Assembly: GCF_964199755.1 (NCBI RefSeq)
Contig: NC_133897.1
Span: 68,752,661-68,816,660, forward strand
DNA: 64,000 bases
Reading direction: 5' to 3'
DNA from: Larus michahellis
Taxonomy: Eukaryota; Chordata; Aves; Charadriiformes; Laridae
Under the pieces are notes generated by a model. The model ran no database searches, had not been told where the DNA came from, and saw only the letters and a program-made list of their open reading frames with translations. Of the stretch, positions 690-62,420 are shown piece by piece. The translations under genes were made by a program, and so were the position numbers. The first letter of the stretch is position 1, and every line of letters starts with the position of its first letter.

Positions 690-1583
690 CTACACAGTCA
701 AGTCAAGCCTGCAAAGCAATGCAGCCGGAAACGGAATCAGAAAAAAAATAATCTTGCTCCTCTGTCTTTTTAATGTTTGATTCATTCTCCCTACTTGCCC
801 ACTCGATTGGCGTCTCCAAGGGGTATGCAAATCCCATTTTACCCCTAAAGCCCTTCCTAAAGTCCGAACCACTTCTGCCGCAAAATGTGGTCCCCTGTCT
901 GATGACATTCCCGTCGGGATTCCAAACCTCAGAATAATTTCCCTCAGTAACACCTTCACTACCTCCCGTGCCTGGCTGGTACGGCAGGGAAAAGCTTCAG
1001 GCCATCCAGAAAAAGTACCCACTAGAACCAACAAACACCGGTACCCGACTTGCCCGGGAAGCTCAGAAAAATCAATTTGCCAGTAATCCCCTGGTGTGTT
1101 TCCTTTCTTTATTGCTCCTGGTGGGGGTCTCGGCTCACTGCGGGGATTATTCTTCTGACATATTTCACACCTGTTTACAACACTGTTTGCAATACTAGTC
1201 ATTCCCACTCCCAAAGCTTACGTCTTAGTATTATCTACTAAAGCCTCCATTCCCCAATGGGTTTCTTTATGAGTTTTCTCTGAAATGTCTCTCACAAGAT
1301 TCTCAGGTGATATCACACGCTGATCCTTGGCCATCCACCATCCGTTGTCATCCTCACCGGACATTAACAACTTAGCTAATTGCTCGTCCCTTCCTGTAGA
1401 CTTGGGAGGCTGACTTAAATGTTGGGATCTTCCAGGCCACGTCCCGAGGATTTTCTTTTCTGCAGCTTGCCCAGCAGTCAGAGCCGCCTTTCGGTTTTCT
1501 GTAACGATGAAAGAGTTGCCAAATTGATGAGCCTTACAGTGCATCCCAGCAAGTTGTTTAGGCAATTGCACCACTTCTAACAA
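690..1583 (-). pseudogene. pol: ERV1 integrase remnant (pol 3' part)
   Basis: Two minus-strand open segments (1218-1583 and 690-1214) carry the integrase. The first ends in the N-terminal HHCC region (HKETHWGMEALVD). The second starts near the second Cys pair (CEICQK) and runs through the catalytic core. Of the DDE triad, the first Asp (IDFSEL) and second Asp (SSDRGPHF) are present, but the Glu expected in the SSGxVERMN context reads Gly (SSGQVGRMN). The two segments are in different frames with a stop between them, and the end runs into unrelated sequence near 786. This is a dead integrase. Confidence 0.85.
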
Positions 1584-1601
1584 CTTCTTTATTACATTTC
1601 C

Positions 1602-2696
1602 TTATTTAGCTGGTGTTCCTTGAGCAGACAGGAGACCTCTTTCCTTCCACAATGCTCCGTGTGCATGTAACACCCTGAAAGCACATCTCGAGTCAGTCCC
1701 TATGTTCGCAAGTTTCCCAGCTGCTATTCCCAGAGCTCTGATTAATGCAATTAATTCTGCTTTTTGTGCTGAAGTTCCTGGAGGGAGTGCTTCTGCCGCT
1801 ATAACTTCTTCTTCTAGGACTGCAGCATATCCTGCCTTTCTAGTTCTGTTAGCAACAAAACGACTCCCGTCCACAAATAGATTCATTTCTGCTGAGTCTA
1901 TAGGTTCATCCTTTAAATCCGCTCGACTAGAATAAACCTGTTCGATTGTTACCAGACAGTCACGTTCTAATTCTGTCTCACTCGCTAAAGGTAACAAGGT
2001 TGCTGGGTTCAGCACTGAAGTCACTTTTAATTCTACATCATCCTGTTCTAATAAAATAGCCTGATATTTCCTCATTCGGCGAGGGGACAACCAATGCCCC
2101 CCCTTTTGCTCTAAAACAGTAGCCGCCGCATGTGGTACCTGAACGACCAGCTTCTGTCCCAGGGTTAACTTCCGCGCCTCTTGGAGGAGCGTTACGGTCA
2201 CTGCCACCGCCCGCAAACAAGAAGCCAGCCTTGACTTACTTGGTCCAGCTGCTTGGAAAGATATCCTACCGGTCTTTTCCAGGATCCGGTCTTCTGAATC
2301 AGTACTCCCAAAGCAATACGGTGTTTCTCGTAAACAAATAACTCCAAAGGTTTTTCCAGGTTTGGCAGTCCAAGGCGCTAACAAGCCAAAATCAATGATC
2401 CACAGGCAACACCATCCGGCCATTCCCAAAAACGCTCTCAGCTCCTGCTTAGAGTTTGGTTCAGGCGTTGGACAGATTGCTTCTTTCCGCCCCATTCCCA
2501 GGCTCCGTTCTCCCTGCGTAACCGTAAAACCCAGACAAACAACGGTTTGTTGCACCACTTGAGCCGCCTTCTGAGATACTCCATATCCAGCTGCTCCTAG
2601 AAAATTCAAGGGATCAACCGTATGTTGCACACAATCAGGTTCTGTCTGTGTCCCCAGGAGAATATCGTCCACGTACTGTAACAAGGTTACTGCCAC
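1602..2696 (-). pseudogene. pol: ERV1 reverse transcriptase (palm onward) and RNase H
   Basis: A 364-codon open frame begins just before the polymerase active-site motif QYVDDILLG (about residues 7-15) and continues through thumb and connection into RNase H. The RNase H acidic residues are visible in FVDGS, AELIAL and GTDSRCAF. The part that should precede YVDD (fingers and first palm Asp) is absent from the adjoining 2700-3110 interval, so the enzyme is truncated. The open length shows slow decay or chance survival rather than function. Confidence 0.85.
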
Positions 2697-34113: not shown

Positions 34114-34118
34114 TGGAG

Positions 34119-34654
34119 TGTAACAAATAGCCAGATCCCTTAAACAGAAATGGCACTTATTTTATGATAGGGACAAAGTCAATAAAGCAAAAGCACAGCG
34201 CTGGGTGCATGACTCAAGTCAGAGGCACACCAGCTAACACTTCAACCATGTCTTATGTACATTGAATATTGCATACGTATTCACTCGTTTAGACAGAGTA
34301 ATTGTTGATAATGATTGATTATTATTAGTCCTTTTTCCCTTCTATTTGTGTGTTTCCTTCTGAATCTTCAGTTCCCTTTTCCCATGCATCTGTTTCCTTC
34401 TGGTAGGATCAGCTCCCTTCTCCTGTGCATCTGTTTCCTTCTGTTAATCACTTGTGGAGTCTTTTGGAGAAGTTCTTTTTTGTTTCTCTTGGATGTTTTT
34501 CTTCATGATGTTTTTCTTCATAGTTGCTGTTAGTTGTTATCTTTGAGGTTTCTCATGTTTCCTAATTTACTAAAGGTTAGTTATCCTTATAAGTCAAAGA
34601 TTTATAGCCTTGTTATTATGGCGAAAGCCAACAATACCTTCACTATTTTTCACA
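34119..34654 (-). repeat. ERV2 3' LTR
   Basis: 536 bp, with plus-strand edges TGTAACAAATAG and TTTTTCACA. Next to it on the internal side is a minus-strand polypurine tract (AAAAAGGGGGAAT), which sets the U3 edge. It carries tandem copies of a CATCTGTTTCCTTCTG unit. The TATA position reads CATAAG where the other copies read TATAAG. Confidence 0.93.
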
Positions 34655-34677
34655 ATTCCCCCTTTTTGTCTTTTATA

Positions 34678-35628
34678 CTACGTTTGGCTTGAGCCATAAC
34701 TTTCATTTTGCTTAATCCATTTGTTTTGTTCATAGATCAATTCTGCTTCTTCCAATTGTTGTGGAGTATTTCTTATTTTCCTTAATACCATTATCTTTTT
34801 AGTTGAGCCTGAGGCTGCCAATTTTGGATTCTTGGGTATGGAAACTACTTGCGTGCTTTGGACTACTGTTATAATTAAGCGTATAAAACAAGGGATTAAG
34901 CAAGGAAGAAATAATAAACAAGCAATTGAACATAAGAGAACGTAGCCTAGTTTCTTCCACCAGGTTCCCCCAAAAACGTTATTCCACCAATTATCATTTA
35001 ACATAGATTCCCATTTTTGAACCGGTACATGCGCAATTTTCCGGATTTCTTCTGTTATTTCCAATATTGCATCCCCATTATCATCTATCTTTAAACAACA
35101 ATCTGAAGTGTTCCATTTTCCACAAATGCCCCCTTCTTCCACCAGTAAGTAGTCTAAGGCTAATTGGTTTTGGTAGATAGCAGTCCTCACTATTTTGGCT
35201 TTTATCATATCTTGTACCCCACCTCCATCTGATATGTCCCAATGCCCGGCTTTAGTAAAGCAGAGCCATTGCTCCCCTCTAGGACAATGTGCTCCTAGTC
35301 TTGTTCCAGCTATTCCTAAATTCTTCCCAACCCAATATTCATGTTGGTCATATTTGCACACTGTTAACTCATGGCAGTTATAACAGCGGCTGTTGATATG
35401 CGAATGCACTGTCATCGTGGAAACCATCTTCCTATTCCAGGAGACCTGCTGGTAACACTTCATGCATTCGTTACTGGATACTAAGGATACCGCTAATAAC
35501 AATATGAGGAGTGGAGGTCCAGTATGGCTTATACTCCTGCCTCTCATGCCTATTGGGGTGCTTCCAACAGCCGAGAAATCATTCTTCTTGGCAGCGAGTA
35601 CAGTGGCCAACCTGGTCTTGCCCTCCAT
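34678..35628 (-). CDS. env: ERV2 env, uninterrupted 316-codon ORF with short surface part
   Basis: This is the only undamaged frame in ERV2. A signal-peptide-like stretch (HTGPPLLILLLAVSLVSS, about residues 35-52) is followed by a short Cys-rich ectodomain with CYNCHELTVC. Then comes a transmembrane-subunit core with a C-x7-CC motif (CGKWNTSDCC) and a hydrophobic anchor (VLLCSIACLLFLPCLIPC) about 80 residues from the end. I see no basic cleavage site or hydrophobic fusion peptide. The surface region is only about 100 residues, much shorter than the 467-codon SU-bearing frame of ERV3. It may be an internally deleted envelope. Whether it is expressed is unknown. Confidence 0.75.
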   Translation of the reverse strand: MEGKTRLATVLAAKKNDFSAVGSTPIGMRGRSISHTGPPLLILLLAVSLVSSNECMKCYQQVSWNRKMVSTMTVHSHINSRCYNCHELTVCKYDQHEYWVGKNLGIAGTRLGAHCPRGEQWLCFTKAGHWDISDGGGVQDMIKAKIVRTAIYQNQLALDYLLVEEGGICGKWNTSDCCLKIDDNGDAILEITEEIRKIAHVPVQKWESMLNDNWWNNVFGGTWWKKLGYVLLCSIACLLFLPCLIPCFIRLIITVVQSTQVVSIPKNPKLAASGSTKKIMVLRKIRNTPQQLEEAELIYEQNKWIKQNESYGSSQT

Positions 35629-35689
35629 CCTCTTTTGATCTGGTATCCCTGGCTCTTGTAGCAGGTAGGGTTCTTATCTCTTTTTCCAA

Positions 35690-36232
35690 GCCAATCGGTT
35701 TTTACAGTTAGAGACCACTGTTTCCCACCATTCTTCAGGAATTTCCCACAAAACCAGCACTAGCAATTCCCACCCGCAAATTAGTGTTACGATATTGGTA
35801 TATCATATCCGAGTTTGAGCCAAACTCGAATTTTGCTTCCGGCAATTTAAACAGAAGGGATGTCTTCGGGATGAATGGTAATACCAATTTTGCTTACAAC
35901 CTAAGCATTCGCACTTCACCCAACTATGATGTCTAGCACAGGGATGTATCAGACAAGCTATACTACGGGGTACTGGAGGGGGCTGTAGTTCTTCCTCAAG
36001 GTTAGGATATAGCCGACTATCTTCTTTATATAAATCGCATGCAAGTGCAAACAGAGAGTTTTCAGTTTTATACAACCCTGACCCTCCTGTCTGTAACGGG
36101 AGTGCTCTTCCTCAAGGAGGATATTTAATTTTCCTTAAGGTTTGCCCCGGCCGTACCTGAAACCAACGATAAAGTTCTGGTTTCACTTCCCAAGTTTCTG
36201 TGATTTCTAAGTTGTTATTCAGTTCCTCTCCC
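35690..36232 (-). pseudogene. ERV2 accessory ORF between pol and env (decayed)
   Basis: An ATG at about 36232, three bases past the pol stop, opens a frame homologous to the ERV3 accessory gene. It has LYRWFQVRPGQTLRK (compare LYRWFQISPGNTLRK), then a TGA at about 36120. The core is in the open frame 35803-36075 with CLIHP, HHSWVKCECLGC and HPFCLNCRK. A further frame change precedes ICGWELLVLVLWE and a basic end. The Cys/His spacing agrees with ERV3. It is broken by one stop and at least one shift. Function is unknown. Confidence 0.75.
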
Positions 36233-36249
36233 ATACATCACCGCGTTGG

Positions 36250-36921
36250 TTGGCGTTTTAAGGTGAGTCTGGTGTCCCCGGCAGTTGAAGTCAGAGTCCA
36301 ATCTCTAGGTTCTTCTACTAGTCCTTTTGTTCTGCTGGCGTGAGTCCACCCTTTTTCCTTCGTCTGTACTGCAGCTTCCGTAGTCGACAGCACCTGAAAG
36401 GGACCCTCCTACTGGGGAGTTGAAGATTGCTCTCTCCATGTTTTACTAAAACCCGTTCTCCAATTTTAGTGTTATGGATCTTAAAATCCAACAGGGTAGC
36501 TTGTGGGAGCAACCCTTTATTTCCTAGTTGTTCCAAGTTCTTTGCAGTCTGCATTACATATTGTTTAATACTAGCCTCCCCTCCTTCATAAGTGAGTGAT
36601 TTGAGTTTTCGGAGGGGTGTGAAAAGATTGTAACAGCTCCTCCAGAGCCTGTCCAAACAGGTTGGGAGACTCTGTAAACCCTTGAGGTAGCTTTGTCCGT
36701 CTAAGCTGCTGTTTACGTCCGGTGTTTGGGTCCTCCTGTTCAAAAGAAAAGGTATCTCGACTTTCCTCAGCCAGGGGACATGCCCAAAATGCATCTTTTA
36801 AATCCACTACACTAAACGAGCTGTGTTCCAGGGGAACTTCGCTCAGAAGGATATAAGGGTTTTGTACAACAGGGTACCAAGTCAGAGTTCTCTTATTCAC
36901 CTCCCGTAAATCTTGCACCAA
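36250..36921 (-). pseudogene. pol: ERV2 pol remnant: RT start joined to integrase end
   Basis: The frame 36586-36921 has RT finger/palm motifs (VQDLREVNKRT, SVVDLKDAFWACPL, LPQGFTESPNLFGQALE) but stops before YVDD. The next sequence (36318-36794 frame) already reads the integrase C-terminal region, with TLLDFKIHNTKIGERVLVK-like and KGGLTPAEQKD ends. The rest of RT, RNase H and the integrase core are absent: an internal deletion of well over 2 kb compared with ERV3. The pol stop (TGA) lies just before the accessory ATG. Confidence 0.85.
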
Positions 36922-37338
36922 CCTGTGTGTCTCCTGCAGCCCAAACTTGCTGATTAATTTTGGATTCGTCCTCCTGACTTAATATTTTTGCAATCATTTT
37001 GCCCTCTTTGGGGATTACTCCAACCCCCAGCTGGATCTGCAAGTCTCTTCCCAACAGATTGCACCCAGCTCCAGGCACTAACAAGATATTCCCTACACCT
37101 ATTTTGTCATTACCTTCAAAAACCACCTGCTTGATCACCGGGGCTTTAAAACTTTCCCCCTTTGCTCCCATTACATTAATTACTTCTTTACTTATAACGC
37201 ATCCTTTAAGTATGTTACAAACGCAAGTTCGCTCAGCTCCTGTATCTACTAGACATTCTAATACTTCCTCCTGGGGCCCACTCTTAGGTTTATCAAGGGC
37301 TCAAGGTGATAGCTATCCTCCAGGAGGTCGAGCCCCTG
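36893..37338 (-). pseudogene. pro: ERV2 protease
   Basis: Downstream of the gag UAG the minus strand encodes a retropepsin. The active-site loop LVDTGAERTCV is intact, the flap region reads VMGAKGESFKAP, and the C-terminal LLGRDLQIQLG follows. The open frame noted (36893-37171) covers its second half. The frame merges into the front of RT. It matches ERV3 (LVDSGAERS). Confidence 0.8.
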
Positions 37339-37344
37339 ACACCC

Positions 37345-38858
37345 CTAATCCTCAATTTCTCTAAACATATTCTGATCTTTATCCCTTTGAGGACGTTCCT
37401 GCTTAAAATGCCCAAGTTTCCCACAATAGAAACATCCACTTCCTTCATTCCTTTTCTCAGTTCCCGATGGTCCCCTTCTGGGAGGGATCTGATTCCCTCT
37501 AAAAGTCTCCTCCCGCCTCTCAGGATTCCGTCCCATCCCCCCCATCACCCTGGGATTTTTCTGAATATTTCCTTCCCTCATGGTGGCTACTATGATTTTA
37601 GCTTTTGCTTTAGCCTTCTCCTCATCTCTTCGTACATATACTTTCTGAGCTTCCCTCAATAATTCGTTCAGGCCCCGATCCTGCCAGTCCTCTAGTTTCT
37701 CTTAATTTTCTTCGAATGTCTGGCCAGGCGTGTGTAACAAATGGAACTCTCAGTAATGTTTGCCCCGCGGGACTCTCTGAATCTCTTCCTGAGCGCTGTC
37801 TCATGTCAGGTCGCAGCGTTTCAGGCCATTCGGTCGGGGTTTCCTCCCTTCCCTGCTGCCCATCAAATGCTTCGGTTACATTCTGCCCTCTAGGAGCGGC
37901 TTCTTTTAAACCTTTAATAATTAAATTTCGATAATCACTCATGTTCCTGTGACCCTCTACATCATTTTGATTCCAATTTGGGTGTACTATTGGCATCTTC
38001 TGGTCCCCAGGTGGGCCTTGCTGATTTTCCCTTTCCCAAATTCTCATCCCAGCTGTTCTAATCATTTGCCGTTCTTCGGGAGAAAATATTATACTTATTA
38101 TTGACTGCATTTCCTCCCAAGTATAAATATTAGGGCCTAGGAATTGGTCTAATTTTTCTGATAGGCCTATTGGATCTTCCAGTAACCCTTTTAATTCCTT
38201 TTTAAAGTTCCTGACTTCAGTGGGCGTCAAAGGAACGTTTACAAATCCTATCCCCCCCTTGTGCTCCCCCTAGGGGTACTTCCCTTAAGGGGAATAAAGT
38301 AACTCCTGGTGTTTCCTGCACCGTGTCTTGGTCTTCCGATTCCTTGACTTTAACAGAAGTTTTCTGCCGTAACCTAGGAGAGTTTGTAAGTGATACTTTT
38401 TCAATTAACCTCTGAGACCTGTCCGACCTTCTCCTAGCACTAGGTGTCAGCTCTTTTCCAGGAGAAGGGGGGGCTGTTGGAGGGAGGCGGTAGGGAGGGG
38501 GCAAAACTTCCAGAGGATCCCACTGCTTCTCCTTTTCTTCCCTTGAGATCTCAGATATTTTAAAGGTACTAACTCCTTTTGGCCAAATCTCCCCTTTCCA
38601 GCAGGAGGCATATTCACTCTCCTCTGGGCTGAATGATTCTTTAAAGTTTACATAAAGGTCTAAAGCCTGGCACATCCACCCTTGAAAGGACCCATATCTA
38701 GGCCAATACAAATGGTCTGCTCGTATAGGTTCCTTTGTCCATTCTATCATATAATACTGAATCATTTTAACTTTATCCTTATTTTTAGCATCAGGATCAA
38801 TATTCCAATTAGCCAATTTTATCCCCAAAGGACTGTCTTGGGGTATATCTGCCGGCAC
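37345..38858 (-). pseudogene. gag: ERV2 gag, frameshifted
   Basis: Three overlapping minus-strand frames make up gag. The matrix part (38217-38858) contains DIPQDSPLG, and the late-domain motif PPPY is in LPPPYRLPPTAPPSP. The capsid part is 37622-38230 (FLGPNIYTWEEMQ, MIRTAGMRIWE). The nucleocapsid part is 37345-37659. The first shift lies in a C-run near 38260. The zinc knuckle reads C-FY-C-GKLG-H-FKQE-R, so the last Cys is replaced by Arg. The normal ATG and Gly2 are not visible at the 5' end. Gag ends in TAG followed by GGGTGTCAGG. Confidence 0.85.
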
Positions 38859-39322
38859 TTTCCCACTCCCCTTTTCCCTGGGGCTGTCTTCCGCTCACCA
38901 GAGCAGTCAAGCACCCAATTTTCCCGGGGCTGTCTTTCACTCAATCTCTGATGCTTCGTCTCTTCACTGGCCAATTCCCTCGTGGGAGATTGGAACCACG
39001 GTTAGAAAGACTCCACACTCGCTACCCAGATCTGGACTGTCCGGTCTGAGTTCCACACACACAGCAATCAAGCCCCAAACCCCCCCAACCAAGCAGTACT
39101 TACAGTCCTGTTTTCTTGCCTGGGTCTTCGTGCACAAGAATTATGGGCTACCGCGGTTTTTCCTGGGGAGACTTACCCCTTTTGCTTTATGAGTCCCTCC
39201 TCTCGTGGGATTATCAGCTTGGAGTCTCAACAGGTACCGGGAAGTCCTCCGAGCAGGCTGCCGAAATCGGTGGGGTGCACCTCCTGCTCGGGGTCTCGGA
39301 GCCCACTGGGACCAAGTGAATT

Positions 39323-39340
39323 ATCCTGGACGAGCCCCCA
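39323..39340 (-). other. ERV2 primer binding site (tRNA-Pro type)
   Basis: On the minus strand TGGGGGCTCGTCCAGGAT begins three bases after the LTR end. This is the known tRNA-Pro primer site of many gammaretroviruses with one mismatch. Confidence 0.9.
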
Positions 39341-39343
39341 AAT

Positions 39344-39852
39344 TGTAATAAATAGCCAGATCCCTTAAACAGAAATGGCACTTATTTTATGATAGGGACA
39401 AAGTCAATAAAGCAAAAGCACAGCGCTGGGTGTAACACTTCAACCATGTCTTATATACATTCAATATTGCATACGTATTCACTCGTTTAGACAGAGTAAT
39501 TGTTGATAATGATTGATTATTATTAGTCCTTTTTCCCTTCTATTTGTGTGTTTCCTTCTGAATCTTCAGTTCCCTTTTCCCATGCATCTGTTTCCTTCTG
39601 GTAGGATCAGCTCCCTTCTCCTATGCATCTGTTTCCTTCTGTTAATCACTTGTGGAGTCTTTTGGAGAAGTTCTTTTTTGTTTCTCTCGGATGTTTTTCT
39701 TCATGATGTTTTTCTTCATAGTTGCTGTTAGTTGTTATCTTTGAGGTTTCTCATGTTTCCTAATTTACTAAAGGTTAGTTATCCTTATAAGTCAAAGATT
39801 TATAGCCTTGTTATTGTGGCGAAAGCCAACAATACCTTCACTATTTTTCACA
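39344..39852 (-). repeat. ERV2 5' LTR with a 27-bp deletion
   Basis: 509 bp. It lacks 27 bp present in the 3' LTR and in the solo LTR at 42184, after GCTGGGTG near 39431. The missing piece holds TGACTCA, an AP-1 core. The TATA box (minus-strand TATATAAG, near 39454) is retained. Confidence 0.93.
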
Positions 39853-42178: not shown

Positions 42179-42183
42179 GAAAG

Positions 42184-42749
42184 TGTAATAAACAGCCAGA
42201 TCCCTTAAACAGAAATGGCACTTATTTTATGATAGGGACAAAGTCAATAAAGCAAAAGCACAGTGCTGGGTGCATGACTCAAGTCAGAGGCACACCAGCT
42301 AACACTTCACCCACGTCTTATATACATTGAATATTGCATACGTATTCACTGTATTAGACAGAGTAATTGTTTATGATGATTGATTGTTATTAGTCCTTTT
42401 TCTCTTCTATTTGTGTGTTTCCTTCTGAATTGTTTCTGAGGATCGATGATCTTCAGTTCCCTTTTCCCATGCATGTGTTTCCTTCTGGTAGGATCAATTA
42501 TCATCAACTCCCTTCTCCTATGCATCTGTTTCCTTCTGTTAATCATTTGTGGGGTCTTTTGGAGAAGTTCTCTTTTGTTTCTCTCGGATGTTTTTCTTCA
42601 TGATGTTTTTCTTCATAGCTGCTGTTAGTTGTTATCTTTGAGGTTTCTCATGTTTCCTAATTTACTAAAGGTTAGTTATCCTTATAAGTCAAAGATTTAT
42701 AGCCTTGTTATTGTGGCGAAAGCCAACAATACCTTCACTATTTTTCACA
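42184..42749 (-). repeat. Solo LTR of the ERV2 family
   Basis: 566 bp, with edges TGTAATAAACAG and TTTTTCACA matching the ERV2 LTRs. It is flanked by a perfect 5-bp duplication GAAAG (42179-42183 and 42750-42754). No internal sequence remains, so it formed by LTR-LTR recombination after insertion. It keeps the 27-bp AP-1-containing piece. Confidence 0.95.
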
Positions 42750-53659: not shown

Positions 53660-54094
53660 TGTTATAGTTGAATTTAAAATAAATCAAGTCCGAAATAGAT
53701 TCAATAAATATTTATTGAGGTAGGAAGGCAAAAGCAGCGCTGGGCGGCCGGGGAGTCGCAGCTCCACCAAAGGCTCGCAAATTCAAGCAAGCTGAGCAGC
53801 TCTTTTTATCTTCACGGAGGTCGGGTTTCGACATCTTCGGTACGCCCCTCCGTACCTTCTTGCTTGAGGTAGTTTAGATAAAATGTTGGTCACAGAATCA
53901 GCTCAAAACAATACATTCTGATAACATTGTGGTTAAGCTTTTTGTCAAACAGGAGTTCCCATGTTGGTGTAGCAAGATAACATTGTGGACATGTCTCTTC
54001 TGGTAAAACAGGGAGTTCTCAAGACTGCCACAATGGGTTCGTTCCTCTTGCTTAACTTGTTTGATCAGCAAATCACCTTTAGTTACTTATTACA
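53660..54094 (-). repeat. ERV3 3' LTR
   Basis: 435 bp from TGTTATAG to TTATTACA on the plus strand. The internal neighbour is a minus-strand polypurine tract (AAAAGAAGGGGGGGAT). A minus-strand AATAAA lies near 53709. Confidence 0.96.
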
Positions 54095-54108: not shown

Positions 54109-55947
54109 TTATTTATAAGTGATTTGCTGATCAAACCTAGACAATACCTCACAAGCTGCATCTAATTCAGGATTTTCGTTCGGTATAAGTTTCATTTCCA
54201 GTTCTGATTGCTTCATCACCATTAGCTGCACTTTTTCTAACCTGCTTTCAACAAAGGTTACAAATTTGTTAATGACACAGGGTCCAAAAGTCAGAGCCAA
54301 TAGCAACATCATGAGGGGTCCCGCCAAAGTAGAAATTAAGGTACTCAGCCATGGTGACTGATTAAACCAAGATTCATACCAGGAGGACTGAGCCTCTCGC
54401 TCTCGTTTTCTTTTCTCTAATCCCTCTCTCAGTTTAGCTAACGAATCTCTTACTACCCCTGTATGGTCAGCATAAAAGCAACATTCTTCACCTAGGGCAG
54501 CACATAATCCTCCGTTTTGCAAGAACAAAAGGTCCAATCCTCTTCAATTCTGTAAAACTACTTCCGACAATGAGGTCAATGATTTCTCTAAATAGGAAAT
54601 AGATTTTTCTATTCGGGCCAAATCTTCGTCTACTGCAGCTCTTAGAGATGTTAGACTCTGCTGTTGTTGCACCAAGGAGGTTATGCCAGTGGCGGTCCCA
54701 GCGACCCCTAAACCAAGTAGAGTAGCTATAGTAATTGTAGATATTGGCTCTCGTTTGTTGATTTTATGTCCTAAATTGCTCCAGTGTAAATACATAGTTT
54801 CTTCCCCATGTAAGAGGATTCTAGGTACCACAGTAACCTGTACACAAAATTCTGAGATACTTTTCTTGAGAACAGCAGTGGACAAACACGGTGTTAATCC
54901 GGTTATGGAGCAGACCCACCATGCCCCAGGACTGGGCAGAACCCATTTAGTATTAGATGTAAAGTTTTGAGTCTGGTTGGTACATAGAGTTCTTCTCTCG
55001 TTCGTTACCTTCCCTATACACCAACCACTCCCTCTGACCTGTTGGAGAGTAATCCCCGCCTTCCGTTCCTTCCAATTACATCTGGAGGGATTGTCCTCGG
55101 TAGAGGTATTAAAAGGAGATGACACAGCTATCCCCTCATAAAAAGGGGGCTTTATGTCATAACATAACCAACAGGAAATGGTAAAATTTGGATTTGTTGT
55201 ATTTAAAGCTTGATAGGCTGCCTGCATTACAGCCCATAAGGGTTCATTGTCTTTGGGTATTTTCTCCACTTTATTTGTAGAGGTTAGGTATGTCCCTGGG
55301 GTGACTGAGGCTGTGGAGTTTCCTGCCTTTGGCTTCTTCTTTTTCCCTTTTTGCTTTGTGATGACTCGATTGGGCCCTACTGCTTGTGGCATTTTAACTT
55401 CCCGTTTTTGAATGAATATTAGTCCTCCTCTATCAGTTCCAGATTCCCAATATCGCATTCCCCAGGTTCGTCCCAATAACCATCCGTGGTCATTAGGCTG
55501 CAGGATTTCTAGTATAACATGCTTACAGTTGCCAAGGTGGGGGCCCTCTATGTGTCCATCCCAGCTAGGAGCTGGCGGGTTGCATCCTCTGGGTCCCCAT
55601 GTTATAGTTAAAAATCTATCTTTAATGGCTACGTCCCAGTTTGAAGCTATGGTTTCACATCCCCAATATGCACAGTAATAGTGATTAGGGAAATTGCAAT
55701 AGCTTTTCCCTGGATTCAAACTGGGGCAGAGATAAAAAGGTTTTATTGCTCTTTCTCGTCGGCCAGGTGGGTCTAGTTCATAAAAGACTAAATCTTCCAA
55801 TTTAACTTGGAATTCTGGGGGCCCGGCTGTCACATTATACCGAACTTCCATTGAATCTTCCCATCGACCTAAGGTCCAATTGAAGGGTTGATGTTCATTT
55901 TCTAAAGTTATGTTAATCAATACCATTAATAGGATACCAGCTTTCAT
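54109..55947 (-). pseudogene. env: ERV3 env with one in-frame stop
   Basis: Frame 54544-55947 (467 codons) holds a short signal segment and a glycosylated surface subunit with the CWLC motif (residues 259-262) typical of gammaretroviral SU. It continues with a basic cleavage-type site (KINKRE, about 395-400), a hydrophobic fusion-peptide-like run (TIATLLGLGVAGTA) and a heptad region. A TGA at 54541-54543 interrupts it. The following 142 codons, in the same frame, carry the C-x6-CC motif (CAALGEECC), the anchor ([15 protein letters not shown]) and a cytoplasmic tail. With the stop, only a product without anchor would be made. The env ATG lies about 155 bp past the accessory stop, and expression would normally need a spliced RNA. 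Confidence 0.93.
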
Positions 55948-56102: not shown

Positions 56103-56645
56103 TCAAATATATTTCCACCTATGTGGTTGTTGTGCCCGTTTCCAGGCGAATCTTATAGCACACTGTCTTAAAACTCTATACCAGTCTGTTTCATATACTT
56201 CCCAAAGTTCAGGTACTGACAGTTCCCACCCACAAAATAATTTACGAATTTCCACTGGATCCTCTGGTCCCCTGGCACGTATCAAATCATTGCGACATTT
56301 CATACAGTAGGGTTGTCTCTTAAATGAAACACAGGACCAATCTCTATTACAATTTAGACATCGGCAAACAACCCAACATAAATGTCCGGAAGTAGGGTGT
56401 TTTAAGCAGGGTATTCCCCAGAGATCTCCTATTCCGGTTGATTCGGGTATCTCCGTCTCTGTTTCGCAACAAAATGGAAAAACCTGGGGAGTTCCTGTTA
56501 GTTTGTATAATCCACCCCCCCCTGTTTGGTCCGGTATCCTTTCTTCACTCCAAGGTGCAAAATATACCTTTCGTAGAGTATTTCCTGGTGATATTTGGAA
56601 CCATCGATATAAACTATCTCTTACTTCCCTTCTGGAGTGGTTCAT
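56103..56645 (-). CDS. ERV3 accessory ORF between pol and env (180 aa, Cys/His-rich)
   Basis: An intact 180-codon frame fills the space between pol and env. Its ATG overlaps the pol stop (AAATGA). The N-terminal box is LYRWFQISPGNTLRK (residues 12-26). The core has C80-x2-H83, H88, C90, C94, C96-x2-C99 and C114-x2-C117, a pattern suited to one or two zinc sites. The C-terminal part has FCGWELSVPELWE (136-148) and a basic end. There is no signal peptide or membrane segment, so a cytoplasmic or nuclear protein is likely. ERV2 has a homologue at the same place. I know of no such gene in simple gammaretroviruses, and its function is unknown. Alternatives are a captured host exon or a divergent leader for env. 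Confidence 0.8.
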   Translation of the reverse strand: MNHSRREVRDSLYRWFQISPGNTLRKVYFAPWSEERIPDQTGGGGLYKLTGTPQVFPFCCETETEIPESTGIGDLWGIPCLKHPTSGHLCWVVCRCLNCNRDWSCVSFKRQPYCMKCRNDLIRARGPEDPVEIRKLFCGWELSVPELWEVYETDWYRVLRQCAIRFAWKRAQQPHRWKYI

Positions 56646-58790
56646 TTACCGGTCTCGCTTTTCCTTATCTTTACTCGAAGATCTCCTGGTTCCGACGTCA
56701 CAGTCCACTTCTCTGGGAAGATAGGTCCCTTAATCCTACTAGCGTGAGTCCATCCTTTTTCTGCTGTCCGTACAGCCGTATCTGTGGTAAGTAAAACAAC
56801 AAAGGGTCCTTCCCAACGGGGTGTTAGGGAGGTTTCTTTCCAGGTTTTGATTAGTACCTGGTCTCCGGGCTGGATTCGGTGTATGGAAATGTCCAAGGGA
56901 GGTCTTTGTACTACCAAGCCCTTCTTTCTTAGTTCCTGTCTTCTTTTTGTAAGTTCTAAAATATATTCTGTTAAAAGTTTATCCTCGACTTTTGGGTGTT
57001 CCACTAATAACCCAAAGTCATAAGGCATTCCATACAACATTTCAAAGGGGGATATACCAGTATCTGTTCTTGGCTGAGTTCTAATGTAAAGCAAAGCCAA
57101 TGGGAAACATTTAACCCAATTCATTTTTGTTTCCACCATAAGTTTGGTTAGGTGTTTCTTTATCTCCCCATTCATTCTTTCTACTTTCCCAGAACTCTGT
57201 GGGTGCCAGGGAGTATGGTATTCCCATTTTGTACCAAACAATTCAGTTGTCTCTTTAATTACTTTGGATGTGAAATGTGGACCTCGGTCTGAGTCAATTA
57301 CCACAACAGTCCCATATCTTGGAATAATTTCTTCCAAAAGAATCTTAATAACTGTCTTTGCAGTAGCTCTTACCACTGGAAAGGCTTCTACAAAGTGCGT
57401 AAGGTGATCAACGAAGACCAATAAATACTGATATCTCCCCACCTTTGGCAATTCGGTAAAATCCACCTGTATTTTCTCAAAGGGTCTTTTAGCCAATTCA
57501 CGACCTCCTTGAACCTTTTCCCTAAGTTGTCGTTTATTCACTTTGTGACAGGTTAAACATCCCTCTAAAATCCTTTTAGCTAGACCGTATATTCCGACAC
57601 AGGCATAGTTTGTCTCAAACTGATCCACTAAAGCTTGAATTCCCCAATGAGTTTTATGGTGTAATTTATTCAGTATTCCCCGAGCTAATCCTTTTGGAAG
57701 AATTTCCCTGCCATCTGGTAGCAGCCATTTATCGCCATCTCTCTTTGCTCCAATTTGTTGTAGCTTATCCAATTCTTGGAGAGTGAAAGTTTTATCTAAT
57801 TTTAGCCTTCCAGGTTCCTCTCTCAAGGTCTGAACCATTAATAATGCAGCCCGTTTTGCCTCCGCGTCGGCAAGATTGTTTCCTCTTACAGTATGGGTTA
57901 GTCCCTTCTGGTGTCCTTTTACATGGACTATGGCTATCTTTAGTGGACCTCTTAATGCCTTTAAAACTTCTAAGATTAGCTTTTCATGGACTAATCCTTT
58001 TCCCTGGGTGTTAATTAAGCCTCTCTCTTCCCAAATTTTTCCAAAAGTATGTACCACCCCAAAGGTATACTTTGAATCTGTATAAATAGTTCCAACTTTA
58101 TTTTCTAAGAGCTTTAATGCCCTTAGCATAGCATATAACTCACACGCTTGTGCGGACCAGGCTTTACTTAATGGTCCTGATTCTTTTATCTTAAAAGTAT
58201 ACCCATCCACAATAGCATAACCTGATTTCCGTTGTCCTTCAACCACTCGTGAGGAGCCGTCCACAAATAATTTTTCTCCTTCGTCTAATTCATTGTCTTC
58301 TAAGTCCTCCCTTATTTTAGTCTGCAAATTTATTAGTTGGAGGCAGTCATGTGTCAAATCTTCTTTAGGTTCTCCGTATAAAAATTGGGCAGGATTCTGA
58401 ATAGAAGTGGTTTCCATTTCTAGTCGAGGGGGGTTAATTAAAATTCCCTCATATTTTAGCAGTCGACTATCTGTAAGCCACTTATCAGCCCGTTGTTGCA
58501 ATACTCCTCGAATGTTATGGGGGGTGTATACTTTTAGTTCACCTCCCAAGGTGACTTTTCCAACTTCTTCCACTACTAATGCAGTGGCCACTATTGCTTG
58601 CAAGCAGGTGGGCCACCCGCGGCTTACAGGATCCAGTATTTTAGAATAATATCCTACAGGCTTTCTCTGCCCTGCCCATCCTTGGGTCAGAACCCCGTAA
58701 GCTGTCCCGTTATCTACATTGATAAAGAGTTGAAAGGGTTTACGGATATCGGGTAAACTGAGGACAGGTGCTTCTACCAGATCTTTTTAT
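56642..58790 (-). pseudogene. pol: ERV3 pol, second part: RNase H and integrase
   Basis: This frame continues pol after a frameshift near 58785; its first ATG is at 58603. RNase H acidic residues appear in LFVDGSSR, QACELYAML and IYTDSKY. Integrase has the HHCC pairs (HKTHWG with CLTCHK) and the DDE residues in IQVDFTEL, VIDSDRGPHF and SSGKVERMN, all intact. The C-terminal domain includes GDQVLIKTWK and RWEGPFVVLL. The stop TGA (56642-56644) overlaps the accessory ATG. Confidence 0.93.
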
Positions 58791-60131
58791 ATTTTCCCAA
58801 CGATTCTCATCTTCAGGGGACCATTTTACCAACCCGTTTTTAGTTAATTTTTCGTACAAGAATTTTACTTTACTGCTGTAATTTTCTATCCACTGTCGAC
58901 AATACCCTAATAATCCTAATAACTGTCTTATCTGTCTTTTATTAGTGGGAGCTGTTAGAGACAAAATTCCTTTTACTCTTTCGGGATCTAATTTCTTGTG
59001 TCCCTTTATGAGCCAATGCCCCAAATATTTTACCTCTTCTTCAGTAAACTGTAATTTGGATTTAGAGACCTTTAATCCCTTGAGGCCTAAAAAGTTCAAT
59101 AATTTGATGCTCTCATTTCTGACTTCTTCTTGAGTTCTTCCAGCGATCAATAAATCATCCACGTATTGTATTAGAATTAGTCCCTGACTTAATTCATAAG
59201 ATTCCAGTAACTGTTCCAGAGCTTGTCCAAACAAGTTCGGAGACTCTGTAAATCCCTGGGGCAAAACGGTCCACCGTAATTGTTGTTTTCTATGGGTCTT
59301 GGGGTTCTCCCACTCGAAAGCAAAATAGTCCCTACATTTTCCTTCTAAGGGACAAGCCCAAAAAGCATCTTTTAAATCTATAACACTATACCATTTATAA
59401 TCTGGACTTAACTGATTAAGTATAGTGTGCGGGTTAGCCACCACAGGGAACCGGGTAATGGTTCGTTCATTTACGGCTCTCAGATCTTGTACTAAACGAT
59501 AGGACCCATCCGGCTTCTTTACGGGCAATATGGGAGTATTGTGGGGAGACATACAGGGTTCCAAAAGCCCTTGGGCCAAAAGTCTCTCAATTACTGGCTG
59601 CAACCCTTCTCTCCCCTCCCTAGAGATGGGATACTGTTTTATCCTAATTGGCTGGTCTGGGTCTTTTATGGAGACCGTGATCGGTTTGATATTTAATTTT
59701 CCCACCGACCCTGGGCTATACCAAGTTTCTGGATTAATCTTGGCTTCATCTTCTGCAGTTAATAAGCATAATCTTACTTTTAATTTCTCTTGCTCTACTT
59801 CCAAATTGATTCCTAATTCCACCATCAGGTCTCGTCCCAAGAGGTTATACTCAGCTTCTGGGACCAATAAAAATGTTCCCACCCCATATTTATTTGGGGC
59901 TTCTATTGTTACATTCCTTATCGGGGGCACCTTAAAGGGTTCCCCCTTTGCACCAACTACTTGGAGTTTATCCTTTGATTCAACACATCCAGATGGTAAC
60001 TTTTGGACTGTTGATCTTTCGGCACCCGAGTCCACAAGGAACTCGAACACTTCGTGCTGAGGACCCAATTTCAATTTTATCAAGGGCTCAGTAACCTTTG
60101 GGGTCCCCAGCAAATAGAGCCCCTGACCCCC
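58740..60131 (-). pseudogene. pol: ERV3 pro-pol, first part: protease and reverse transcriptase
   Basis: The frame is in phase with gag, separated only by the TAG. Protease has the active loop LVDSGAERS and LLGRDLMVELG. RT has VQDLRAVNERT, SVIDLKDAFWACPL with its catalytic Asp, LPQGFTESPNLFGQALE and the active site QYVDDLLIAG (YVDD about residues 317-320 from 60113). The frame derails after LVKWSPEDENRWENIK into unrelated codons and stops at 58740. That single shift is the main lesion in pol. Confidence 0.93.
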
Positions 60132-61604
60132 CTAATCTTCCTTAAAAATCTCCTCATCCTGCCTTCTTTTCCGACAATTTCTCTGTAGATGTCCCTTCTT
60201 GCGACAATAAAAACATTCTATGTCCTGCGAACTAAATCTTCTTCTTCTCGGTTCTACTGGGCCCTTCCGGGGACTTTCTCCTCTCCTGCCCTGATTTTGT
60301 CCTTCCCTTACAGCTGCCATCAGGATTCTGGCTTGTTTCTTCTGATTTTCTTCCTCCCTTCTCACATACACCTTCTGAGCTTCTCGTAATAATTCATCTA
60401 ACCCCCTTCCCTGCCAGTCTTCTACTTTCTCTAACTTTCTCCTTATATCTGTCCAAGATTTAGCTACAAATTGAGTTTTCAGCAGGGCTTGACCCACTTG
60501 GCTATCGGGGTCTAACCCGGAATATAGCTGTAAACTTTTTCTCAATCTTTCCAGCCATTCAGTGGGGGTTTCATCTTTCTTTTGTTGTTCATTAAAGGCC
60601 TTATTAATATTTTGCCCTCTGGGTACAGAATCTCTAATCCCCTGAATTATTATATCCCGGAGATCAATCATGTTATTTCTATGTGCGGGGTCTTGATTGT
60701 CCCAATTGGGCCGCTGTAAGGGCCATTTTACATCTCCGGCGGGACCATGCTGATGCCTCTGATCCCAATGCCTCATGCCTGCCGTTCTGATCATTCCTCG
60801 TTCTTCGTTTGTGAACAAGATCTTTAAAATACACTCCATCTCGTCCCAAGTATAAATGTTAGGCCCGAGGAATTGATCAAAACGTTCTGCTACCCCTAAT
60901 GGGTCCTCTAACAAGTGTCCCATTTCTTTCTTAAATTCCCTCACATCCCCGGAGCTGAGGGGTACAGATACAAATCCAACTCCGGGTTGTGGTCCCCCCA
61001 TAGCAGTCTCCCTTAAGGGATACAACAAGTTTTCCTCCCTCCTTTCTCTAGTTTGACTTCTAGTTATTCTTTGATTAGAAGGAGGAGCCTCTTCCCCAGG
61101 TTCTGTGGGGGCTGTTGGAGGGACATCTTGCTCAGGACCTTGCGGAGGGGGGACATAGGGTGGGGGAGACGCTGGAGGTTCGTCTACATCCCACCTTTTC
61201 TTTCTATCATTTTTCTTTTCTTTTAATGGAAACAAATTAGCGGCCTGAGCCGTGCCCAGGATCCATAAAAAGGCGTATTCACTCTCCTCCTTATTAAATG
61301 GTCGTTTGTTGTTAACATATATGTTTAATTGTTGGCATATCCAATCCTCTAAGGATCCATGAATTGGCCAATATAAATCTTTTCTTATCTGTTTTCTTCC
61401 CCATACCTCCATACAATAATAGACCAATTTCTCCTTGGATTTCCCTTTTCGAGAAGGGGAACTATCCCAATATCTAATCATTAGGCCTAACGGGCTATCT
61501 TGGGGTATATCGGGGAGCCCACCCCCACCCCGTATCTCCTGCATGGAACCAGAAGTCCTACTTTTCTTCTGTCCCATCTTCCGAAAGTGCCTTCTTTCAC
61601 TCAA
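60132..61604 (-). CDS. gag: ERV3 gag, intact 490-codon frame
   Basis: Gag is the structural polyprotein. The frame opens at 61604, but the likely start is the second Met (MGQKKSRTS, residue 10), which gives Gly2 for myristoylation. Visible parts are matrix (GLPDIPQDSPLG, WPIHGSLEDWIC) and a Pro-rich linker with the PPPY late motif (residues 147-150). Capsid follows (FLGPNIYTWDEME and the major homology-like DETPTEWLERLRKSLQLY). Nucleocapsid has a single CX2CX4HX4C knuckle (CFYCRKKGHLQRNC). It ends in TAG followed by GGGGGTCAGG, which suits readthrough into pro-pol. Confidence 0.94.
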   Translation of the reverse strand: MSERRHFRKMGQKKSRTSGSMQEIRGGGGLPDIPQDSPLGLMIRYWDSSPSRKGKSKEKLVYYCMEVWGRKQIRKDLYWPIHGSLEDWICQQLNIYVNNKRPFNKEESEYAFLWILGTAQAANLFPLKEKKNDRKKRWDVDEPPASPPPYVPPPQGPEQDVPPTAPTEPGEEAPPSNQRITRSQTRERREENLLYPLRETAMGGPQPGVGFVSVPLSSGDVREFKKEMGHLLEDPLGVAERFDQFLGPNIYTWDEMECILKILFTNEERGMIRTAGMRHWDQRHQHGPAGDVKWPLQRPNWDNQDPAHRNNMIDLRDIIIQGIRDSVPRGQNINKAFNEQQKKDETPTEWLERLRKSLQLYSGLDPDSQVGQALLKTQFVAKSWTDIRRKLEKVEDWQGRGLDELLREAQKVYVRREEENQKKQARILMAAVREGQNQGRRGESPRKGPVEPRRRRFSSQDIECFYCRKKGHLQRNCRKRRQDEEIFKED

Positions 61605-61985: not shown

Positions 61986-62420
61986 TGTTATAGTTGAATT
62001 TAAAATAAATCAAGTCCGAAATAGATTCAATAAATATTTATTGAGGTAGGAAGGCAAAAGCAGCGCTGGGCGGCCGGGGAGTCGCAGCTCCACCAAAGGC
62101 TCGCAAATTCAAGCAAGCTGAGCAGCTCTTTTTATCTTCACGGAGGTCGGGTTTCGACATCTTCGGTATGCCCCTCCGTACCTTCTTGCTTGAGGTAGTT
62201 TAGATAAAATGTTGGTCACAGAATCAGCTCAAAACAATACATTCTGATAACATTGTGGTTAAGCTTTTTGTCAAACAAGAGTTCCCATTTTGGTGTAGCA
62301 AGATAATATTGTGGACATGTCTCTTCTGGTAAAACAGGGAGTTCTCAAGACTGCCACAATGGGTCCGTTCCTCTTGCTTAACTTGTTCGATCAGCAAATC
62401 ACCTTTAGTTACTTATTACA
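61986..62420 (-). repeat. ERV3 5' LTR
   Basis: 435 bp, the same length as the 3' LTR. The edges TGTTATAG and TTATTACA are identical. Differences from the 3' LTR include a C/T near 62168 and a few changes at 62279-62391. Confidence 0.96.

Follow-up and report, generated by a model that had tools for sequence, protein, structure and literature searches.

A candidate accessory gene between pol and env of gammaretrovirus-like endogenous retroviruses of Larus michahellis

Does an additional open reading frame (ORF) between the pol and env genes of an endogenous retrovirus (ERV) encode a viral protein in its own right, or is it a by-product of its neighbours, of a captured host gene or of chance? 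The question is raised by a 64,000-nucleotide stretch of the Larus michahellis genome (NC_133897.1, positions 68,752,661 to 68,816,660 of the forward strand; hereafter the window, to which all coordinates refer), in which the provirus ERV3 holds such an ORF and a second provirus, ERV2, a decayed copy of it. We consider it probable that the ORF is a true retroviral accessory gene and that selection maintained it during the replication of gammaretrovirus-like viruses. It is conserved and distinct from gag, pro, pol and env, and its product of ~180-186 amino acids (aa) is encoded between pol and env in two or more element families that are deeply separated. The best reading of the product is a new family of retroviral accessory protein that is soluble, basic and probably zinc-binding.

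The reading frame and its relatives

The accessory ORF of ERV3 occupies 56103..56645 on the minus strand and encodes 180 aa without an internal stop, in agreement with the earlier note on this DNA, which had reported an intact 180-codon ORF between pol and env (56645-56103). Its ATG (56645-56643) overlaps the TGA of pol (56644-56642) as ATGA, and env starts at 55947, 155 nucleotides downstream of the accessory stop. Since pol carries a frame change (the ORFs for the reverse transcriptase (RT) part and the 3' part overlap at 58740-58786) and env an in-frame stop (54546-54544), the accessory ORF is open inside an otherwise broken provirus. The decayed copy in ERV2 lies at the same place, at 35674..36234 (minus strand). 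It starts with an ATG at 36234, is closed by a TAA whose last base is 35674, and comprises 186 codons plus stop, with two internal stops and zero frameshifts; the span given for it before, 35690-36232, was slightly narrow. A tblastn search matched it to the ERV3 protein at 36189-35665 with 37% identity over 186 columns (E 1.3e-30). Counted from first base to first base, the ATG of the ERV2 copy stands six bases downstream of the pol TGA, and in the same frame as pol. As previously stated, the two elements differ in their long terminal repeats (LTRs), which gave no match to each other at the search threshold used, and their primer-binding sites are unlike.

Relatives also exist outside this genome. 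A search of 5.8 billion proteins returned five, of 179-181 aa and 58-85% identity; a profile built from these added P0006 (186 aa, 40% identity). P0007 (186 aa, 39% identity) came from a second profile, which also gave P0008-P0011 as partial matches, with an E of 6 for P0011. Each of the seven full-length relatives begins with a Met of its own, at the corresponding position or close to it. None of these seven had a Pfam-A match above cut-off, and the accessory protein itself matched no Pfam or NCBIfam family. The IMG/VR scans gave no relative of it, and no PDB chain fell below E 0.05 for the accessory protein or the relatives searched.

The middle of the protein is marked by a Cys/His core, C-x2-H-x4-H-x5-C-x-C-x2-C-x14-C-x2-C, whose eight candidate ligands (C80, H83, H88, C94, C96, C99, C114 and C117) keep an ungapped spacing in 12 aligned rows. 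The paired Cys/His spacing to which attention had already been drawn is therefore real in the sense that it recurs in relatives outside this genome. All 10 representatives have C80, H83, H88, C99, C114 and C138, and C94, C96 and C117 are each absent from a single one of the 10; Trp and Cys are the most conserved residue types overall. The segment C96-x2-C99-x14-C114-x2-C117 has the spacing of a zinc ribbon. P0007, and no other relative, matched the ribosomal S27a zinc-ribbon model PF01599 over ~30 residues at E 0.003, below cut-off, and weak PDB rows paired S27e with P0006 (E 0.74) and aS34 with P0005 (E 0.28). The protein middle thus probably binds zinc through the eight Cys/His residues. The isoelectric point (pI) of the 10 representatives spans 8.2-9.0, the C-terminus is basic in the ERV3 branch, and the highest 19-residue hydropathy (0.45-1.63) is low, making a membrane segment unlikely; together, hydropathy, pI and C-terminus suggest a soluble, intracellular protein.

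The host assembly (1.4055 Gb, 616 contigs; 150 of 182 candidates scored) contains at least 127 matching rows for the accessory gene, some copies being represented by two rows, and the rows fall mostly into two families. Around these matches 91 stretches were taken for analysis; a copy near C38:4417109, an insertion-split copy near C38:13966523 and short fragments were left out. For the ERV3 family, 54 distinct sequences were aligned, including the window copy and excluding L076 (identical to L067), and 48 of these were analysed after five partial or divergent copies (L069, L070, L084, L091, L092) and one with its frame broken over a long stretch (L036) had been dropped. The ERV2 family comprises 37 distinct copies, including the window copy and excluding L093 (identical to L043). 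The frame is open from the start codon (178-182 aa) in 21 of the 48 ERV3-family copies, and an open 186-aa frame is present in 8 of the 37 ERV2-family copies. Four more of the 37 have a 232-aa frame that continues past the gene into what lies downstream; the remaining copies are broken or without a start. The 27 broken ERV3-family copies comprise 7 with stops and 20 that are out of frame at a variable run of G. In the window this run consists of eight G at 56515-56522 (minus strand) inside the gene, and the longest run ranges from 3 to 15 among the 48 copies, a variation that reverse-transcription slippage or assembly error could explain.

Selection and competing explanations

The accessory gene is under protein-level constraint between the two families. 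One pair (ERV3 and L045) was simulated 300 times under neutrality, up to the observed nucleotide divergence: none of the 300 sequences stayed stop-free, amino-acid identity reached at most 0.35 (0.43 observed) and pN/pS fell no lower than 0.62 (0.59 observed). An open frame evolving neutrally to 85, 77, 72, 65, 58 and 40% identity survived in 32, 11, 1, 1, 0 and 0 of 400 cases, respectively. Identity between the families is 0.40-0.44 over five pairs, formed by ERV3 and five ERV2-family copies, and pN in the accessory gene (0.41-0.42) is higher than in the end of pol (0.28-0.29; pol dS is saturated), so that the accessory gene evolves faster than pol. With open-frame relatives elsewhere and no match to env or to any named family, this constraint sustains the original proposal of an undescribed coding gene kept during replication; among the titles and abstracts listed from the open-licence literature, no description of it was found. 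The same five pairs gave a dN of 0.58-0.61 and a dS of 1.58-2.31 for the accessory gene, a ratio of 0.25-0.39 that is rough because dS is near saturation and that was obtained on copies chosen for being open, the first two of several points that weigh against a selected gene.

The others come from several sides. Over the five pairs pN/pS is 0.57-0.64, and L046, at 0.64, lies among the values that the L045 simulations produced under neutrality. In copies of the ERV3 family the decay of the accessory gene is about that of its neighbours: for variants present in at least two copies, omega is 0.78-0.90 in the accessory gene, 0.65-0.75 in the end of pol and 0.97-1.13 in the start of env, depending on transition weight, and for singletons it is 0.82-1.06 across all three. 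Stop-making variants in the accessory gene occur at about the neutral expectation (7 singletons and 4 shared; 1 and 2 in pol), and the frame is lost at the G-run in 20 of 48 copies. The copy-by-copy dN/dS comparison proposed in the earlier note is accordingly near neutral for accessory gene, pol and env alike and uninformative; because pol and env are about as relaxed, such a comparison is powerless on these young copies. The databases of predicted proteins in which the relatives were found favour open frames and starts at an own Met. Between the accessory start and the env start a simple splice-site rule finds no splice site, which leaves the expression of env unexplained. Among the candidate zinc ligands, P0007 is without C94 and P0001 without C96 and C117, and the weak PDB searches returned rows unrelated to zinc ribbons at similar E-values. 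AlphaFold2 models were too poor for use (predicted local distance difference test, pLDDT, 36 and 43); Foldseek on the model with pLDDT 43 gave a best E of 1.8, with several rows that we take to be zinc proteins and none significant.

The alternative that survives best, itself unlikely, is a captured host gene kept for a cellular function, comparable to the KIT ligand carried by a crocodilian ERV. Gene capture at this same place is on record in the accessible part of PMC4299795, and both the position and the Cys-rich make-up of the product would fit. However, no host family in Pfam-A was matched above cut-off and no PDB chain below E 0.05. A weak likeness of the N-terminus to antibody light chains (E 0.056 and 0.055) was absent when P0005 or P0006 was searched alone, and is taken as chance.

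Slightly less likely again is a C-terminal extension of Pol, made by read-through of the stop and working as a Pol domain. In the ERV3 family the frames of pol and the accessory gene differ and overlap by ATGA, whereas the two share one frame, with a single TGA between them, in the window copy of ERV2 and, judged by frame, in the majority of that family, so that read-through is possible in the ERV2 family and not in that of ERV3. The intervening stop is lost in two copies (L060 and L095). Moreover, the integrase C-terminal match of P0008 continues into the accessory gene without a stop, and by eye the same appears to hold for P0011 and for P0010 (source name Hirundo rustica), in which the end of pol runs into the start of the accessory gene. 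The own Met of the seven full-length relatives argues for a separate protein, although a predicted-protein database would show such starts anyway.

That the ORF is an N-terminal part or leader exon of env, or the leftover of an older env, is highly improbable. A match to the N-terminus of env, which the earlier note had named as grounds for giving up its proposal, was looked for and TLV_coat matched 0 of 7 members at E 10. The env of ERV3 has its own start (55947), 155 nucleotides past the accessory stop, followed by an N-terminus that is signal-peptide-like by eye and a TLV_coat match at E 2e-66. These findings outweigh the location of the ORF directly upstream of env, the 232-aa run-on frame of the four ERV2-family copies (L049, L050, L052 and L057) and the absence, by the simple rule, of a separate env splice site. 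An untranslated or regulatory stretch that is open by chance in young elements is strongly disfavoured: the ERV3 LTRs do differ by no more than 1.4%, omega within the family is close to 1 and new stops appear as often as under neutrality, but the frame is open at 58-72% and 39-40% identity in other sources, and the neutral simulations speak against it.

Expression, predicted role and proviral context

If the ORF is a retroviral accessory gene, as we prefer, its protein would be made from a spliced mRNA by way of a predicted 3' splice site in the end of pol. The candidate is a pyrimidine-rich AG at 56782..56806 (minus strand), with its last G 137 nucleotides before the accessory ATG. The AG at 56782 is kept in 48 of the 54 aligned copies, the region being missing or divergent in the other 6, and the simple scan finds 2 sites in 1,958 bases, where 500 shuffles average 0.39. 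Donor-like sites are present in the leader. In ERV2 a similar AG at 36394 was chosen by eye, and 34 of the 37 copies have the nine-base string present there. The alternative would be reinitiation downstream of the pol stop, and we infer expression by one or the other route from the sequence. There is one short ATG upstream of the accessory start, and seven ATGs separate it from the env start, which makes it unlikely that env is reached by scanning past the accessory gene.

The protein would most likely act through protein or RNA contacts. As a tentative first choice, falling a little short of an even chance, it is predicted to counteract a host factor or to serve as an adaptor to one; a role as an RNA-binding regulator of the virus is possible and rated somewhat lower. 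Whether the full picture holds is evenly balanced in our judgement: that an MLV-like (murine leukaemia virus-like) bird virus lineage was complex and not simple, with a dedicated zinc protein, encoded between pol and env, that evolves fast, predates the ERV2/ERV3 split, stands outside any known protein family and either counters a defence factor of birds or steers viral RNA. If true, a protein of its own in the position of vif across deeply separated families would mean that accessory genes arose in gammaretroviruses too, and would give a handle on the bird defence or RNA-processing steps with which these viruses had to deal. The young open-frame copies make the accessory gene testable.

ERV3 is a gammaretrovirus-like (class I) ERV, ordered as gag, protease/RT, RNase H/integrase, accessory ORF and TLV_coat env on the minus strand. 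The class-I traits present are Gag_p30, an MLV-type RT, an MLV-type integrase C-terminus and the TLV_coat env. The 5' LTR (61986..62420) is followed by a primer-binding site that we take to be tRNA-His-like, and the 3' LTR (53660..54094) is 98.6% identical to it (Kimura two-parameter distance, K2P, 0.014). Between them, gag (60132..61604) has the Gag_p30 match and a zinc knuckle below cut-off, while the segment for protease and RT (58740..60113) finds its best PDB matches in MLV-type RT. Its top PDB row is a p80 RT/RNase H chain (E 5e-79), presumably that of XMRV, and Moloney MLV RT is named at 1e-63. The 3' part of pol (56642..58786) contains RNase H, the integrase core and the MLV-type integrase C-terminal domain, and env (54109..55947) the TLV_coat match and the stop mentioned above.

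Among the ERV3-family copies, 19 of 48 match the start of env only. A second type of env in these copies was considered and ruled out by translation of L018 and L023, the two translated, in which an env deletion joins the signal peptide to the transmembrane (TM) end. The accessory ORF is open in 10 of these 19 copies and in 11 of the 29 others.

ERV2, also on the minus strand, extends from its 5' LTR (39340..39852), followed by what is presumably a tRNA-Pro-like primer-binding site, to its 3' LTR (34117..34654), the pair differing by a K2P of 0.0139. Its env remnant (34678..35673) has a TLV_coat match below cut-off and keeps the TM end, and much of the surface subunit (SU) appears to be missing. 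The TM ends of ERV2 and ERV3 are 24% identical (E 2e-8), and the two envelopes are, judged by this match, distant relatives. A solo LTR related to that of ERV2 is found at 42180-42749. Both insertions have 5-base flanking repeats, CTCCA on both outer sides of ERV2 (34117-39852) and CTTTC at the solo LTR; 4-base repeats are given for ERV1 in the accessible part of one bird-repeat paper. A third, fragmentary pol, labelled ERV1 in the window (714-2216), is 37% identical to the pol of ERV3. No accessory gene copy was matched near this fragment and no env was seen by eye in the ORF list, no profile scan having been made, so that the fragment is uninformative. In the host genome 76 of the 127 rows, by hand count, lie on one contig of 26.9 Mb (C38), which may be the W chromosome because ERVs are known to crowd there (PMC8310711, in its accessible part).

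Comparison with known systems

ERV3 shares Gag_p30, an MLV-like RT, an MLV-type integrase C-terminus and a TLV_coat env with MLV-group gammaretroviruses and ERV1-type elements, and differs from them in carrying an additional ORF in the pol-env interval. Gammaretroviruses serve as the textbook example of simple retroviruses. The statement that no gene is known at this place in simple gammaretrovirus-like elements stands as far as these elements are concerned, none being described for them in the literature looked at; genes at the same place are on record in foamy-like ERVs of fish (PMC5512871, in its accessible part).

The likeness to vif that had been pointed out holds for position and not for sequence or motif. 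Lentiviral Vif is likewise encoded between pol and env, and with about 180-190 aa, conserved Cys/His and a basic character it resembles the accessory protein. Its zinc motif is H-x5-C-x17-18-C-x3-5-H; the alignments of the accessory protein give H88-x5-C94-x19-C114, with no His 3-5 residues later, and no Vif chain was among the PDB matches at E 10 or below. APOBEC3, the target of Vif, is described as mammalian-specific in the accessible part of PMC3761234, and with the Vif motif lacking as well, an action on APOBEC3 in the manner of Vif is improbable. The CxxC ... CxxC unit is shared with zinc-ribbon proteins, ribosomal S27a and S27e among them, in matches that are below cut-off or not significant and that imply no shared function.

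Other retroviruses carry extra ORFs, and are compared here by what the accessible parts of the cited papers describe. In CrocERV29 an extra ORF under purifying selection likewise lies between pol and env (PMC4299795); that ORF is a recognisable host gene (KIT ligand), whereas the accessory ORF of ERV3 matches no host family above cut-off. The orf-x of Jaagsiekte sheep retrovirus (JSRV) and Orf-x2 of XtERV-S lie inside pol in another frame (PMC8278194), and the 3'ORF of snakehead retrovirus is elsewhere in the genome (PMC12193657), so that by description all three are set apart from the accessory ORF by position. The nearest precedent found is provided by acc3 and acc4 of foamy-like ERVs of ray-finned fish, which are ORFs between pol and env in several elements, without known domains and described as of unknown function (PMC5512871). 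By the same description they are set apart through their length, 465 and 334 aa as compared with 180-186 aa here, and through their foamy-like lineage. Given this precedent in fish, the new part of the present finding is the gammaretrovirus-like setting together with the conserved Cys/His core.
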